Positions 5,354 through 26,474 of a DNA stretch of 28,508 nt are shown piece after piece. The stretch's first letter is position 1. Each line of letters opens with the position of its first letter. This DNA is from a virus. The notes under the pieces were generated by a model. It saw nothing but the letters and a program-made list of their open reading frames with translations. It searched no databases and was not told where the DNA came from. The stretch covers positions 1 to 28,508 of the IMG/VR virus record IMGVR_UViG_3300030329_001425, one strand, 5' to 3'. A program made the position numbers and the translations under genes.

Positions 5354-5543
5354 TAGGCGTTTTCCTTGAAACAAGTTCATTATCAACAATATCTTCCAAC
5401 CAGAAATCCATCTTACCAGTTCCAGCTGGGGAATCTTCTATAGATTCACATATTTTGTCTAATTCAGCAATATGAATCTTTTTAGTATAATCCCTAATAA
5501 GTTTATCAACATTGTCAACATATTCTTCAAACTTAGTTTTCAT
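5346..5543 (-). CDS. Small conserved-position protein between gp55 and gp47 (65 aa)
   Basis: This is a 65-residue mixed-charge protein with a helical N-terminal half (MKTKFEEYVDNVDKLIRDYT) and an acidic, Trp-containing C-terminal half (GKMDFWLEDIVDNELV). No family is recognised. It overlaps the gp55 stop by 11 nt and its own stop overlaps the preferred gp47 start, so it is coupled to both. Position between the late sigma factor and the recombination nuclease suggests a partner of one of them, but this is only contextual. Confidence 0.65.
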   Translation of the reverse strand: MKTKFEEYVDNVDKLIRDYTKKIHIAELDKICESIEDSPAGTGKMDFWLEDIVDNELVSRKTPSE

Positions 5544-6072
5544 TTTCGAGCTCCTCTAAAAAATGTTCAATCCCTTTTTTGGATTTTTTACGTTTTGGTT
5601 TAGGTATGTCCTTCTCATCAAGATTATCTCGCAAGAATTCCATATAAGTGTTTTCATACACATCATCATCACCTTCCATAATATCATATGTCTTGGTTGA
5701 TGTGTTATCAATAATTTTTTGCTTAATTGCAGTTTGTTTTTTCTCCTTCGTAATTCTACGAATGAAAGCATAGTATATAATTTGTGTAAAATATGCAAAT
5801 GGATTTTTAGATTTCTCTGGATTAAAATTCTTTGCATATCTAATACAATTTTCAATACCATCACCTATCATCTCCTCACGATAGGTATAATTGATAAAGT
5901 TGGGCCTGTACGATAGATGAGTGGCAATTTTATAAAAACATTCACCCATATATTCTGTGACCATTGGTGGTAAGTCATCCACCTCATCAGATTCATCAAT
6001 CTCTGCTTTCCACTTTTGCATTTCAGCAAAAAATAATTTATTATCAACATAGTGTTGTTTTTCCTGTTTCAT
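5533..6072 (-). CDS. 55: Late-transcription sigma factor gp55
   Basis: This minimal sigma factor directs host RNA polymerase to TATAAATA late promoters. At 179 residues it is close to T4 gp55 (185). The region around residues 70-120 (REEMIGDGIENCIRYAKNFN, then NPFAYFTQIIYYAFIRRI) is the sigma region-2-like core that binds the polymerase clamp and recognises the -10 element. The C-terminus is highly basic then acidic (KPKRKKSKK...LEELENEN); the end is where T4 gp55 carries its sliding-clamp contact. It starts 3 nt after the uvsW stop. Its predicted targets occur repeatedly in this window. Confidence 0.93.
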   Translation of the reverse strand: MKQEKQHYVDNKLFFAEMQKWKAEIDESDEVDDLPPMVTEYMGECFYKIATHLSYRPNFINYTYREEMIGDGIENCIRYAKNFNPEKSKNPFAYFTQIIYYAFIRRITKEKKQTAIKQKIIDNTSTKTYDIMEGDDDVYENTYMEFLRDNLDEKDIPKPKRKKSKKGIEHFLEELENEN

Positions 6073-6075
6073 GTT

Positions 6076-7545
6076 TCATTTTAAATTAACTTTTACAATC
6101 TCATAATCAAATTCTTCTTGATTATAGATACCAATACGTTTAACAAAATGTTTTATCGTATGGTTATTATTCTTAAAGTCATCTGCAATATCATATATCT
6201 TAGCTCCATCCTTATTTTCATGTGTCCGTAACCCTCTACCTATTGACTGAAGGTTTCTGATACGACTTTTATAAGGACTAGCGAAGATAATGTTATGAAG
6301 ATTCCTAATATTGATACCAGTACTAAATACACCGAAACTGGCGACAACAATCGAATCTCGTTCTGATTCAACGATTCCTCGAATTTTTTCTCTTGTCTCT
6401 GAGTCTGTTCCCCCATAGACATAAAAAGTTTTTCTTTTAACATCAGCCTTCTCCTTTATGAGTTCGTGTAATAACTCTCCATGTTTAATTAACGAAAAAA
6501 GGACTAAAGTATTTCCCTTTAAGTCAATGCACAAATTCCTAATCAGATTATTCCTTTGAGGATGCTCTGTTATAAATTTGATTTCTTCATTATAGTCTCT
6601 TATTATACACTCCTTTTCTGAATAAGTCAAGACAATTCCCATAATTTTTAAATCAGAGATTTGTTTAGCATCAATAAGTTTTTTTGTAGTAGTCACTTTC
6701 TTGACTGACCCAAACAAACCCTCAAGAACTAAATGGTGACTCTCTGCATCATCAAGTGTTCCTGTCAATCCAAACTTATAAGGACAATCTGTGGTTTTCT
6801 GCATTATGGTTTTCAGAGATTTAGCTGTAAATGTATGTACCTCATCTCCTAATATAACCTTATACTTCTCAAAATGTTTCTTTGGTAATTGATATATGGA
6901 TTGCCATGTAGATATGTGTACAAGTTTTGGTGAAGTCTTTTCTTTTCCTGCATAAATTCTGTGACAGTACTTCTCAGAATCCCAGCCGTAGTCTTGGAAA
7001 TCTGTATACATTTGTTCAACTAATGATGAACGTGGCACTAACAACAAAATATGTGAGTTATCAATGATTTGTTGGTAGTAACGTATCAATGTGTATATTA
7101 TAAAACTCTTACCACTTGCTGTGGGGCTCACCAAGATACATCTTCCATGTCTAATGGAATGTTGTACTGCATCAAACTGGTAGTCTCTAATCTTGACTGT
7201 ACTCTTTAATCCTTCTATGAAAGATTCAACACTATCAACATCGATGTCTAATTGGGTTTTGACCCCACCACTTATAGTATATTTTTTTGCTGTTGCAAAT
7301 TTGTAGATATAATCGGACAATCCAACGTAAATTTGATTGTTCCGTGTATCGAATAATCGAATTTTTCCATCCCAAAGTCTGTTCTTATATGAAGGCATAA
7401 ACTTTGCCCCAGGCACATCGAAACTGAAATATTCGTTTAATTCTTTTGCAATACTTCTTTCACATTCAATCTGAAAATAAACATCATCTTTCTTGTGAAT
7501 TATAATATCATATTCCAGCCTCGAATTTTCGCCACTCAATCGCAT
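6076..7545 (-). CDS. uvsW: UvsW DNA/RNA-DNA helicase
   Basis: This SF2 helicase regresses forks, branch-migrates recombination intermediates and removes R-loops at origins, switching T4 from origin- to recombination-dependent replication. It has the UvsW N-terminal domain (FSFDVPG...LWDGKIRLFD, residues 40-66), Walker A SPTASGKS (140-147), the Walker B/DExH box GDEVH (233-237), and motif VI QSIGRGLR near the C-terminus. It has 489 residues against about 502 in T4. The ATG at 7545 lies inside the uvsY end (38-nt overlap) and lacks a good Shine-Dalgarno; T4's protein aligns from about residue 12, so a later non-ATG start is possible. Confidence 0.95.
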   Translation of the reverse strand: MRLSGENSRLEYDIIIHKKDDVYFQIECERSIAKELNEYFSFDVPGAKFMPSYKNRLWDGKIRLFDTRNNQIYVGLSDYIYKFATAKKYTISGGVKTQLDIDVDSVESFIEGLKSTVKIRDYQFDAVQHSIRHGRCILVSPTASGKSFIIYTLIRYYQQIIDNSHILLLVPRSSLVEQMYTDFQDYGWDSEKYCHRIYAGKEKTSPKLVHISTWQSIYQLPKKHFEKYKVILGDEVHTFTAKSLKTIMQKTTDCPYKFGLTGTLDDAESHHLVLEGLFGSVKKVTTTKKLIDAKQISDLKIMGIVLTYSEKECIIRDYNEEIKFITEHPQRNNLIRNLCIDLKGNTLVLFSLIKHGELLHELIKEKADVKRKTFYVYGGTDSETREKIRGIVESERDSIVVASFGVFSTGINIRNLHNIIFASPYKSRIRNLQSIGRGLRTHENKDGAKIYDIADDFKNNNHTIKHFVKRIGIYNQEEFDYEIVKVNLK

Positions 7546-7939
7546 TTTTTATTTGAAAAGATCGATTACTAACTGATCTTACTATCTCCTGTAGATATTC
7601 CACTACTGATTCATAGTATTCAACTTTACCTTTTAGTTCCCGATATTCCTTATCGGCCTCTATAAAGGTTTTTTGGTCATCCTTTGTATGTAACTTTACA
7701 TCAAAAGAACCCTTTTCCTTGTAAATTTCTTCTGTTGCTTTCCCTGTGTAAAACACCCATTTATCCCTTTTGAGAACATTAAGTTCTCCCTGTGTCTTTT
7801 TTAGAAGAAGGGAATGCTCTGTTAAGAGCTGTAAATATTTGGAATGTAAAGAAGGGATTCGTAAAGATTCTATGTCTAATTCAAGGTCATTGATTTTTAG
7901 GTCTTTTCTGACCATTTCTTGTATTTCTGATAAAGTCAT
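7508..7939 (-). CDS. uvsY: UvsY recombination mediator
   Basis: UvsY loads the UvsX recombinase onto gp32-coated single-stranded DNA. The 143-residue product is all-alpha and charged and matches T4 UvsY in length (137). Family features are the N-terminal helices, a central KWVFYTGKA-like segment, and a C-terminal helix ending SVSNRSFQIKNAIEWRKFEAG, typical of UvsY. It is the first gene of the recombination operon, about 45 nt downstream of a consensus early promoter (7985-8013). It overlaps uvsW by 38 nt. Confidence 0.92.
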   Translation of the reverse strand: MTLSEIQEMVRKDLKINDLELDIESLRIPSLHSKYLQLLTEHSLLLKKTQGELNVLKRDKWVFYTGKATEEIYKEKGSFDVKLHTKDDQKTFIEADKEYRELKGKVEYYESVVEYLQEIVRSVSNRSFQIKNAIEWRKFEAGI

Positions 7940-7984: not shown

Positions 7985-8013
7985 ATAATAACATATAAAA
8001 ACGGAAATGTCAA
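7985..8013 (-). promoter_or_regulatory. Early sigma70-type promoter for the uvsY operon
   Basis: On the minus strand TTGACA (8013-8008), a 17-bp spacer and TATTAT (7990-7985) are present, with a TG one base before the -10 box (extended -10). The next gene is uvsY at 7939. It should drive uvsY-uvsW-55-ORF65-47-46-def. No T4 MotA box was looked for beyond eye inspection, and none was evident. Confidence 0.88.
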
Positions 8014-8024
8014 GTTTTTTCCCC

Positions 8025-8115
8025 CTACGAAAGACGTAGCCTAAACATGATAGCTATATTGTCACACAGCCTAATCAAGTGGACTCACTTAAATTAATTT
8101 TTATGTTTAGGCTAC
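8025..8115 (-). other. Structured intergenic element: 13-bp inverted repeat with nested and competing stems
   Basis: Arms 8036-8048 and 8103-8115 are perfect 13-bp inverted repeats (GTAGCCTAAACAT/ATGTTTAGGCTAC) around 54 nt. Inside is a 5-bp hairpin (8077-8081/8086-8090, 4-nt loop) and an 8-bp palindrome ATAGCTAT (8050-8057). A second copy of the arm core, AGCCTAA (8068-8074), can replace the distal arm as pairing partner. A further 5-bp hairpin CTACG/CGTAG (8025-8029/8035-8039) shares four bases with the 13-bp stem. No U-tract follows, so it is not a simple terminator. It lies between the late structural module and the uvsY promoter. Confidence 0.75.
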
Positions 8116-8128
8116 TTGTGAGTATTTA

Positions 8129-8731
8129 TTACGATGAAGTCTCAAACTCATAATAAAGATACCTAAAACTTGCTGTTGCTTTAAAATATTCAACATCTGT
8201 TAATTCTTGTGAATATTCTAATCCAGACAATGTTGTAGGAAACATATCTTTAAATTTAACTTCTACTTTTGGTACATTCTTAGAATTATATATTATTAAT
8301 GCACCATCTGAATATAAATTTCCTTCTGTAGATGTTCCTTTTTGCATCACAGAAGCTGTTCTAGGGTCAATTTCATCATCAGAACCTACTGAACTAAAAT
8401 TTAAAGTTGTTCCATCACCTTTAGTTAATGCTGTAGACCATTGTGAATGTTGTTTGGGAGCCCCCATTCCTACTAACCAATCCCATAATTCTCTATAATT
8501 TTGAAGTTCTTCATCTACCAAAAAAGTTATATTTAAGGTTTCAAATGTAAGTTTGTCTCCTGCAACAAATGTATCTGTCATAGGTGTGGGAAATGTTGCT
8601 TCTCCTAAAGTAATGCCAGGTAAATTTGCAGCTGTACAAAACCAAGTTGTTTTGGGTAGACGATTAAACGCAAGTCTCCATTGAGTTCCAGTTGCGTAAT
8701 CAAATACTGTAGGTTGACTAGTGTCTGCCAT
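8129..8731 (-). CDS. Tail-tube-fold virion protein (gp19-family paralogue)
   Basis: This 200-residue protein shares a pattern with the gp19 tail tube protein at 14715-15242: a Cys-x-Ala-x-x-LPG-x-T segment (CTAANLPGITLGE), then F-x-x-G-x-x-LTFE, a D-x-x-x-x-x-R...W helix (NYRELWDWLVGMG), and a C-terminal F-x-x-MFP...EYFKATASFRYLYYE strand pair. These are tube-domain features found in T4 gp19 and gp54. In marine T4-like phages this spot before uvsY is often assigned to gp3, the tail completion protein, so that is an alternative name. It has its own late promoter (8760-8767), placed right after the terminator of the preceding gene. Probably a tail tube tip, initiator or terminator component. 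Confidence 0.75.
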   Translation of the reverse strand: MADTSQPTVFDYATGTQWRLAFNRLPKTTWFCTAANLPGITLGEATFPTPMTDTFVAGDKLTFETLNITFLVDEELQNYRELWDWLVGMGAPKQHSQWSTALTKGDGTTLNFSSVGSDDEIDPRTASVMQKGTSTEGNLYSDGALIIYNSKNVPKVEVKFKDMFPTTLSGLEYSQELTDVEYFKATASFRYLYYEFETSS

Positions 8732-14714: not shown

Positions 14715-15242
14715 TTAAGTTGTAGTATTTGTTTCAAAAAATTGGTAACGATATGTTGCTTCAAATTCCTCTACTACATCATTAGAGTCGTAGGCCAAAT
14801 CTATTTGTCCTACTGTTAATGGAAATAATCCTCTAAAAGTATAGGATTTGATTACTTGTCCAGCACGATCTAGCTGGTCAACAAATGCATCAACCATATA
14901 ATCAGATGGATTTGTCAATCCACTATTATCAGATAATGAATTAATTTCATTCATCCATCTTTCTAATGCATTACGGATTGCAAAATCGGTATCATTCATA
15001 ATAGTTGTAGTCCAAGGCTCGAAAGTACGTTCCCCTGCAATAAATAGAGTTCTACCTCTAAATGGTACAGGAGTTTCAGCTATAGTCATGCCAGGCAAAT
15101 GTGTCGCTTTACATAAAAAGGACATTTGTCGTGTTTCTCCACCCTCAGCTGCAAAGCCAGGAAATGGCATAGTTACTGAGAATTGATTAGCTCTAGCTCC
15201 ACCACCTTTTAGTACTGCTTTAAAGTCGTTTATGTTTGCCAT
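14715..15242 (-). CDS. 19: Tail tube protein gp19
   Basis: Gp19 polymerises into the inner tail tube through which DNA passes. The 175-residue product (T4 163) shows the tube-fold pattern: N-terminal NQFSVTMPFPG, then CKATHLPGMTIAE, FRGRTLFIAGERTFEPW, a helix with RWMNEI, and the C-terminal FRGLFPLTVG...EFEATYRYQFFE. It follows the sheath gene gp18 with only 9 nt between them, as in other T4-like phages, and is likely read from the gp18 late promoters. Confidence 0.95.
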   Translation of the reverse strand: MANINDFKAVLKGGGARANQFSVTMPFPGFAAEGGETRQMSFLCKATHLPGMTIAETPVPFRGRTLFIAGERTFEPWTTTIMNDTDFAIRNALERWMNEINSLSDNSGLTNPSDYMVDAFVDQLDRAGQVIKSYTFRGLFPLTVGQIDLAYDSNDVVEEFEATYRYQFFETNTTT

Positions 15243-17329: not shown

Positions 17330-17337
17330 TATAAATA
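17330..17337 (+). promoter_or_regulatory. Late promoter box for the plus-strand HNH-like gene
   Basis: An exact TATAAATA lies on the plus strand. The ATG of the plus-strand gene begins at 17343, 6 nt from the end of the box, about where T4 late transcripts start. The mRNA may therefore be leaderless. Confidence 0.75.
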
Positions 17338-17342
17338 ATTCT

Positions 17343-17645
17343 ATGGAACACTACCAGAAATACAAGAAAACAATCAAAGAAGGAGTTAGAAAGGCTCGTA
17401 GAAAACGTGATATATGGATTAACGAATTACTTGCAGATAAATCGTGTATATACTGTGGGGAAACAGAAACGTGTACGTTGGCATTCTACCCTGACAACAA
17501 AGAAATCCGAATCATTTCAAGACAGAAAGGACTCAGAGAAAGACTCAGGATACCAATTTTGGAACGGATACAAAAGAATAAGATTGTATGTTTAAATTGT
17601 GAGGCTAAATTAAATAATGAGATTGAATTATCACCAATCTTCTAG
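17343..17645 (+). CDS. Degenerate HNH-type zinc-binding protein (100 aa), only plus-strand gene
   Basis: This basic 100-residue protein has two zinc knuckles, CIYC (C35, C38) and CLNC (C83, C86). Spacing and flanking residues follow a known phage HNH family (CxxCG...LxFHH...I...L...CxNCH), aligning CGETETCTLAFYPDNKE and ILERIQKNKIVCLNCEAK. The two catalytic His of the FHH position are replaced by Tyr-Pro and the His after CxNC by Glu, so nuclease activity is unlikely. The N-terminal 30 residues are rich in Lys/Arg. It lies between gp17 and gp18 on the opposite strand and its last 15 nt overlap the gp17 3' end. It looks like an inserted homing-nuclease-type gene that has decayed or been repurposed as a DNA-binding protein. 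Confidence 0.75.
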   Translation: MEHYQKYKKTIKEGVRKARRKRDIWINELLADKSCIYCGETETCTLAFYPDNKEIRIISRQKGLRERLRIPILERIQKNKIVCLNCEAKLNNEIELSPIF

Positions 17646-25086: not shown

Positions 25087-25425
25087 CTATTGTGTCACTC
25101 TAGGGTTAAAGGTTGCAAGTCCTTCAACTACTCTCGTTTTTCCTCCTGAACCTGAAGTTATTAAAACATCATAAACATATCTACCATGAGATATAGCAGC
25201 TGTTTGAGCTCCAGTAAGGGATATGTCTAATTTTCCTGTGGTTCTGTCTGAATTGAATGCAACAGTAAATGCAACTGTTGCAGATGAGGACTCGTATGTT
25301 TTACGGATTTGTGCGGCTGCGGTGTAGTTAGTTAGGTCTAAAGCAGACCCCGAACTGTCTGTAACTGATACAGTTGTGGTAAAATCTGCACCACAATCTA
25401 TGAAGATATTTGAAATAGTTGCCAT
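25087..25425 (-). CDS. Small beta-sandwich fibre-associated protein (112 aa)
   Basis: The 112-residue protein opens with FIDCGADFTTTVSVTDSSGS, then LDLTNYTAAAQIRKTYESSS and DISLTGAQTAAISHGRYVYD, and ends VVEGLATFNPRVT. This layout (D-x-x-x-Y-x-x-x-xQIR, then L-T-x-x-x-T-x-x-x-x-x-G-x-Y-x-Y-D) is that of small BppU-N-like beta-sandwich proteins in phage baseplate and fibre clusters. A late box and terminator hairpin lie directly upstream, so it begins a transcription unit that continues into the collagen-like gene. Confidence 0.75.
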   Translation of the reverse strand: MATISNIFIDCGADFTTTVSVTDSSGSALDLTNYTAAAQIRKTYESSSATVAFTVAFNSDRTTGKLDISLTGAQTAAISHGRYVYDVLITSGSGGKTRVVEGLATFNPRVTQ

Positions 25426-25430
25426 AAAAA

Positions 25431-25465
25431 AACCCTTATAAATGTTGTAAGTATTTATAAGGGTT
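25431..25465 (-). terminator. Intrinsic terminator with a late promoter in its 5' arm
   Basis: Minus-strand arms AACCCTTATAAAT and ATTTATAAGGGTT form a perfect 13-bp stem with a 9-nt loop, followed at once by TTTTTTT and then the ATG at 25425. It ends transcription from the XkdW-like gene (stop 25493). The 5' arm plus first loop base contains TATAAATA (25452-25459). Confidence 0.85.
25452..25459 (-). promoter_or_regulatory. Late promoter box embedded in the terminator
   Basis: An exact TATAAATA lies on the minus strand. The expected start falls in the hairpin loop, so RNAs made here lack the 5' arm and cannot form the terminator. Confidence 0.8.
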
Positions 25466-25814: not shown

Positions 25815-26474
25815 TTATCTCTTTACCTCCATAAATTGTATTGACCAGATAGAACTATATGCTCCACCTATAACGCAAGCCTCAGTATTATATGTTCCAT
25901 ATTGTAATGTATAAGTAATAGCACTTGTTGTAGCTGGACTATCCATAACAGTAAGTTGTCTCATCTCAAAGAAAGTAGTAGTTGCACTATTGGCATTACG
26001 ATAGCCAGTAGAATGGTGATTTGGTGAACCAGATTGAGTCAGAGTTGACAGAGATTGAGGATAAGTTGTTGCACCACCTGAGATTACTCTTTTAAATCTT
26101 GTTGCGACACCTGCATCACCAGAACTATTTTCTAGAGTATTTCCATACCAACAAATTATAAATACATCACTTGTGTTATATACTGGTGTATATGCACCTG
26201 TAACGACTGTATCTGTCCAAGTATTATGAACATTACCACTTGTTGATGTTGTTCCTGTTGTTTGGTCTGATACTCTAATAATACTTCCTGCAGGCATTAC
26301 AGCAGTACTCCCAATAGTCGCATTATATGTTCCACTAGTTACAGTACCAATATTATTTGTAGTACCAGATAATGTGTGATTTCCTGAAGCATCAATAGTA
26401 TGTGCAGCGGTTCCACCTTCATCCTGAAGGATTAAACTTCCACCACTTGTAGGTTTTATTATTAAATTTGCCAT
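25815..26474 (-). CDS. Tail fibre-type protein (219 aa)
   Basis: The 219-residue protein opens with ANLIIKPTSGGSLILQDEGG, a common fibre N-terminus, then TYNATIGSTAVMPAGSIIRV, then a C-terminal beta-rich domain (for example SITYTLQYGTYN) with Gly/Thr/Ser/Asn richness. The middle and end align loosely with the next fibre protein (26552-27322), suggesting a common receptor-facing domain. An exact late box lies 19 nt upstream of its ATG. It is followed 1 nt later by the XkdW-like gene. Confidence 0.75.
   Translation of the reverse strand: MANLIIKPTSGGSLILQDEGGTAAHTIDASGNHTLSGTTNNIGTVTSGTYNATIGSTAVMPAGSIIRVSDQTTGTTSTSGNVHNTWTDTVVTGAYTPVYNTSDVFIICWYGNTLENSSGDAGVATRFKRVISGGATTYPQSLSTLTQSGSPNHHSTGYRNANSATTTFFEMRQLTVMDSPATTSAITYTLQYGTYNTEACVIGGAYSSIWSIQFMEVKR

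Follow-up and report, generated by a model that had tools for sequence, protein, structure and literature searches.

A conserved stem-closed RNA, probably late-transcribed, upstream of uvsY in uncultivated marine T4-like phages

By 2010, T4 had yielded no functionally characterised riboswitch or trans-acting regulatory RNA, and the T4-related genomes were suggested as a place to look for such RNAs (PMC3014915). T4 encodes the small RNAs RNAC and RNAD, whose roles are unknown (PMC3014915). In the case of gp32 and gp43, the operators are structured leader RNAs before replication or recombination genes and consist of a single hairpin or pseudoknot together with the RBS (PMC3014915). The e, soc and I-TevI leaders combine a late promoter with a leader structure to separate early from late expression; there, the late promoter sits within the sequence for the 5' strand of the helix that masks the RBS (PMC3014915), and the late mRNA is therefore without the structure. 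In marine phages, the cyanophage motifs manA, wcaG and PhotoRC-II are structured RNAs that were found via comparative genomics and form families at metabolic or photosynthesis genes (PMC2864571). Furthermore, the lytic T4-like marine cyanophage S-PM2 has the small noncoding RNA CfrI, an antisense RNA of ~225 nt at psbA (PMC2984593).

The locus described here lies in a 28.5-kb fragment (28,508 nucleotides, hereafter the window) of an uncultivated T4-like virus, in which the minus strand carries nearly all the genes. A structured element occupies part of the 189-nt gap from a second tail-tube gene to uvsY. The relevant features are as follows, where P1 is the stem that closes the element.

Various positions in the window, minus strand: terminase, tail tube, major capsid and uvsW genes
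5533-6072, minus strand: gene of the late sigma factor gp55, encoded in the window
7508-7939, minus strand: uvsY (recombination mediator), downstream of the RNA; PHROG 231, E 2e-46
7985-8013, minus strand: putative early sigma70-type promoter for uvsY, TTGACA-17-TATTAT with an extended -10, 11/12 consensus positions, downstream of the RNA
8025-8039, no strand assigned: CTACG/CGTAG hairpin overlapping the base of P1
8036-8117, minus strand: conserved structured RNA from the predicted +1 to the end of P1, ~82 nt in the window
8036-8048, minus strand: 3' arm of P1, AUGUUUAGGCUAC, from covariation and the uvsY tree
8055-8067, minus strand: core block 2, GUGNGACAAYAUA, near-invariant
8068-8078, minus strand: variable loop UUGAUUAGGCU between the core blocks, containing the second arm copy (AGCCTAA)
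8079-8085, minus strand: core block 1, AGUCCAC
8103-8115, minus strand: 5' arm of P1, GUAGCCUAAACAU, from covariation and the uvsY tree
8123-8129, minus strand: predicted T4-type gp55-dependent late promoter ATAAATA, predicted start 8117
8129-8731, minus strand: second tail-tube-like gene, upstream of the RNA; PHROG 45, E 4e-32

Compared with the systems above, the element appears alike in kind to known phage RNAs and a member of none of the families tested. Like RNAC and RNAD, it would be a small RNA of a T4-type phage, but no homology to either is shown. It shares with the e, soc and I-TevI leaders the pairing of a late promoter with a structure, but here the structure lies wholly downstream of the predicted late promoter, so that a late RNA would carry the structure and an early uvsY RNA would not. 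The gp32 and gp43 operators have neither a late promoter at the stem base nor a long closed stem around a core of 7 + 13 nt. The Rfam models of manA, wcaG and PhotoRC-II do not match the element, and in contrast to CfrI the present RNA is intergenic and co-directional with its neighbours. No match at the gathering score was obtained from Rfam 15 for the window and ten relatives, and the permissive mode returned chance matches only. T4-like phages occur in the ocean in great numbers, and with its strong covariation and predicted ends the element offers a testable RNA and a candidate of the kind that T4-related genomes were suggested to hold.

An initial annotation of the window had proposed a structured, switch-like element at the late/early boundary before uvsY on the strength of a perfect 13-bp inverted repeat. 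The repeat is present (8036-8048/8103-8115), and taken alone it is only mildly unusual: the window has two perfect 13-bp inverted repeats whose arms are no more than 100 nt apart, and 10 of 100 dinucleotide shuffles of the window contain at least one. The fold of the element is far stabler than that of its shuffles (z -4.9 on the minus strand, z -3.6 on the plus strand). What places the element beyond chance is its conservation in relatives, with 53 distinct versions and very strong covariation of the stem. The structured element at this boundary is thus real, and P1 is conserved where the absence of the stem from relatives had been named among the findings that would speak against it.

RNAalifold and direct counting of pairs give the same result for a structure alignment of 34 non-redundant versions. 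P1 is paired in 34/34 at seven successive columns, with two-sided compensatory changes in each, and the signal is lost when the partner is slid by 1-3 columns. On the uvsY gene tree, the eight P1 pairs underwent 22 changes, comprising 11 two-sided changes that kept the pair, 9 one-sided changes that kept it and 2 that broke it. P1 clearly shows the compensatory changes expected of structured noncoding RNA. Read as minus-strand RNA, G-U pairs outnumber A-C mismatches 15:3; this makes the minus strand, in which the genes also read, the functional single strand. The covariance model scores 86.4 bits on the minus strand of the window versus 20 bits on the plus strand. The inverted repeat is best described as the closing stem P1 of a conserved minus-strand RNA, ~80-90 nt across the family, and not as a plus-strand switch.

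The strand preference also bears on a role in DNA, which the initial annotation had held equally possible. T4 has a replication origin named for uvsY, and this origin, together with the neighbouring uvsY and uvsW genes, would suit an ori(uvsY)-like origin, a UvsW-sensitive R-loop site or a cruciform. However, a cruciform would be strand-symmetric, yet the G-U pairs favour one strand by the 15:3 given above; the upstream signal is that of a late promoter, and the window sequence has no GC-skew turn at the element. The origin idea finds no positive support, and a DNA element is regarded as most improbable, though an RNA-primed origin would keep a small probability.

The proposed switch rested on a second AGCCTAA at 8068-8074 that would compete for the 8103-8115 arm. 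This copy is present and able to pair with the arm, and the pairing reaches up to 9 bp in 21/53 versions, all of the GTAGCC type. It is found in most GTAGCC-type members only: three members of this type (L002, L005 and L082) have it disrupted, and the GTAACCC, GAGCAG and L109 lineages do not have it; in the GAGTC lineage there is an unrelated 6-bp pairing possibility, of a size expected by chance by our own estimate. Because P1 survives in all lineages and the alternative pairing does not, a switch with two exclusive partners is not the conserved feature. The broader suggestion of a structured RNA fares better, as this is the best reading of the locus once the two-partner mechanism is set aside. 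The additional CTACG/CGTAG hairpin (8025-8029/8035-8039) does have bases in common with P1; it occurs in 2/53 versions (the window and L093 only), where it occupies the place of the U-run found in most close relatives.

Inside P1, core block 1 is invariant in 34/34 aligned sequences and core block 2 nearly so, the N being among its few variable positions, although this invariance partly reflects the way members were found, since the relaxed core scan would miss members changed at several core positions. That scan yielded no true core variants, only chance matches besides the known members. In the junction set collected through uvsY without use of the core, this core is present in 39/39. The loop between the core blocks measures 9-12 nt in relatives. 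Only one interior pairing, GUCCAC:GUGNGAC with the N bulged, is possible in all aligned sequences (100%); as its pairs never vary, covariation is uninformative and the hairpin is put forward as a proposed structure. In ten members, imposing it raises the energy by 0 to 11 kcal/mol over the MFE. Folded singly, members give MFE structures with three-way junctions whose form changes from lineage to lineage, and a three-way junction was rejected as the family fold, being supported within lineages only. Peptide coding was judged unlikely, as the spacing between the blocks varies by single nucleotides.

Upstream of P1, the cyanophage late motif NATAAATA (PMC2984593) is present in 49/53 versions and TAAATA in 53/53. 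The first invariantly paired base of P1 lies 7 nt past TAAATA, or in the equivalent GAGTC/GAGCAG register, in 51/53, and this spacing is near-fixed although the spacer sequence varies. The sigma factor gp55 contacts A-12, A-9 and A-8 (PMC7892883), from which we deduce that TATAAATA would occupy -13 to -6. Together, the near-fixed spacing and this contact-based placing predict that transcription starts at the P1 base (8117 in the window). The site has the hallmarks of a putative T4-type late promoter, namely NATAAATA and a start ~6 nt past the last A, the start being placed via PMC7892883. Within the window, TATAAATA also precedes several structural genes, lying 20-33 nt ahead of the start codons at 26474, 25425, 17246, 14669 and 8731, and ~25 nt before an ATG inside the gp22 reading frame.

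On the other side of P1, a U-run of at least four directly follows the stem in 28/53 versions. A U-run is missing from the window and from its close relatives L093 and L006, and in most GAGTC/GAGCAG members no more than 2-3 U come after P1; termination is uncertain in all of these because the run is absent or short. The U-run and the position of the element at the end of the structural-gene run would fit a mere terminator or insulator, in which P1 halts late structural transcripts before they reach uvsY. However, a terminator has no need for a near-invariant internal core or for a late promoter at fixed spacing before the stem, and many members, the window included, are without a good U-run. 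This function by itself is considered unlikely, and a late RNA accounts for more than termination by itself or a DNA origin would.

To obtain the relatives, IMG/VR was searched by protein with uvsY, the tail-tube protein and uvsW as guides; the gap was then extracted and the conserved core scanned for, the scans covering viral and genome contigs. All 53 versions come from uncultivated contigs, their carriers are uncultivated marine T4-like phages, and the element sits at the tail-tube/uvsY junction wherever the neighbouring genes are visible. Among 104 distinct junctions or upstream stretches compared by uvsY identity, the element is present in 39/39 with a uvsY at least 60% identical and in 0/65 below 60%, which fits one gain in one clade. 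A sigma70-type early uvsY promoter lies past the RNA in 25/39 of the distinct element-bearing junctions and was not found there in the other 14/39. The core is kept in both groups, and its function therefore does not need the early uvsY mRNA.

The locus probably represents, on present sequence comparisons, a new late-transcribed family of structured phage RNA, more likely than not an autonomous small RNA; the main rival is a late uvsY leader acting in cis. In the proposed mechanism, the host core polymerase with the phage sigma factor gp55 would recognise NATAAATA at 8129-8123, and the late transcript would start at about 8117, at the base of P1. P1 would seal the 5' and 3' sides of an RNA of 80-90 nt and present the AGUCCAC...GUGNGACAAYAUA core. 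In about half of the family, the U-run directly past P1 would complete a compact promoter-RNA-terminator unit, after which most junctions have an early promoter belonging to uvsY itself. The core would most likely bind a specific partner late in infection. We infer the expression of the RNA, its exact ends, its autonomy from uvsY and the binding of a partner. A small structured late-phase phage RNA with its own gp55 promoter, closed by P1 and binding a specific partner through its core, has in our judgement close to an even chance of being correct. The further step, a new class of late-phase trans-acting sRNA of T4-like phages that would have its gp55 promoter at the stem base, the 7 + 13 nt core for recognition and a terminator behind it, and would act on a host or phage factor, is put forward more tentatively.

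With a cis-acting leader, the late promoter would instead yield a uvsY mRNA with the RNA at its 5' end. UvsY, gp32, another protein or a condition acting on the core would then alter termination at P1 and the U-run, translation or stability, and the early uvsY mRNA, where present, would start downstream and escape the control. The hypothesis stays strong because the element strictly accompanies uvsY, an association that is exclusive and complete in the 39/39 distinct junctions. In the 14/39 junctions without a downstream sigma70 promoter, uvsY starts a short distance past P1, and T4 gp32 and gp43 offer precedents of autoregulation via leader RNA (PMC3014915). Against it, uvsY's own early promoter lies past the RNA in 25/39, often directly after the U-run; T4-type gene order is conserved anyway, so that a fixed position is weak evidence; and no sequestration of a Shine-Dalgarno is visible. 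A leader is held to be a serious but doubtful reading, and autonomous function is slightly favoured over it because the core is kept with or without the early uvsY promoter. An autonomous late RNA, if true, points to late RNA-based control; a uvsY leader, if true, points to the timing of recombination between early and late infection.

Searches for copies, hosts and targets were made as well. The window contains no copy of the element elsewhere, and the element region has no blastn match in isolated phages. Weak isolate matches of two relatives were set aside, as they are located in the uvsY coding sequence and not in the element, and the HTVC008M and Mosig loci gave no match to the covariance model. 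An exact scan of genome contigs for the core pattern returned four matches, and host mimicry of the core was rejected: 3/4 have no flanking structure, and the fourth, located in a MAG, matches a phage version exactly. Among the translation starts of the window, no convincing target of the core was found, 15 of 50 shuffled cores being equally good. The isolate capsids nearest to that of the window are ~60% identical and belong to Pelagibacter, Prochlorococcus, Synechococcus and Methylophilales phages, so that they point to no single host. No tRNA was found in the window.

Several minor observations concern the surrounding genes. Two genes of the tail-tube family (PHROG 45) occur in this one phage, at 8129-8731 and 14715-15242 on the minus strand, and the one adjacent to uvsY is the more diverged. 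No Shine-Dalgarno is visible at the starts 7939 (uvsY) and 8731 (second tail-tube gene), both on the minus strand; one is visible for other late genes (sheath, portal and the gp22 region). The 5' arm of the window's other perfect 13-bp inverted repeat (25431-25465, minus strand) contains the late promoter TATAAATA; after the repeat come seven T in a row and then the ATG at 25425, an arrangement that looks like a terminator fused with a late promoter. On the plus strand, at 17331-17645, the end of TATAAATA lies 5 nt ahead of the ATG of an ORF at 17343-17645 (100 aa), which sits between the terminase and tail-sheath regions and has no Pfam match. The predicted late start would fall on the ATG itself, which suggests a leaderless late mRNA.

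Further uvsY searches from L019 and L037 gave no new element type except in L037/L383 and L178. Upstream of uvsY, at the same junction, L037, L383 and L178 have TATAAATA, a 5-nt spacer, a long stem (GTGCAGAT or GAGCAGA) and a CCTTTTTGA-like tail; their interior is different and the core is absent, and the covariance model of the element matches neither L037/L383 nor L178. L037 and L383 have in common AGTCTCGTATCGAGATAA and a GAGCAAGTTGCTC hairpin. By this layout, the three may possibly be a distant version of the same RNA.
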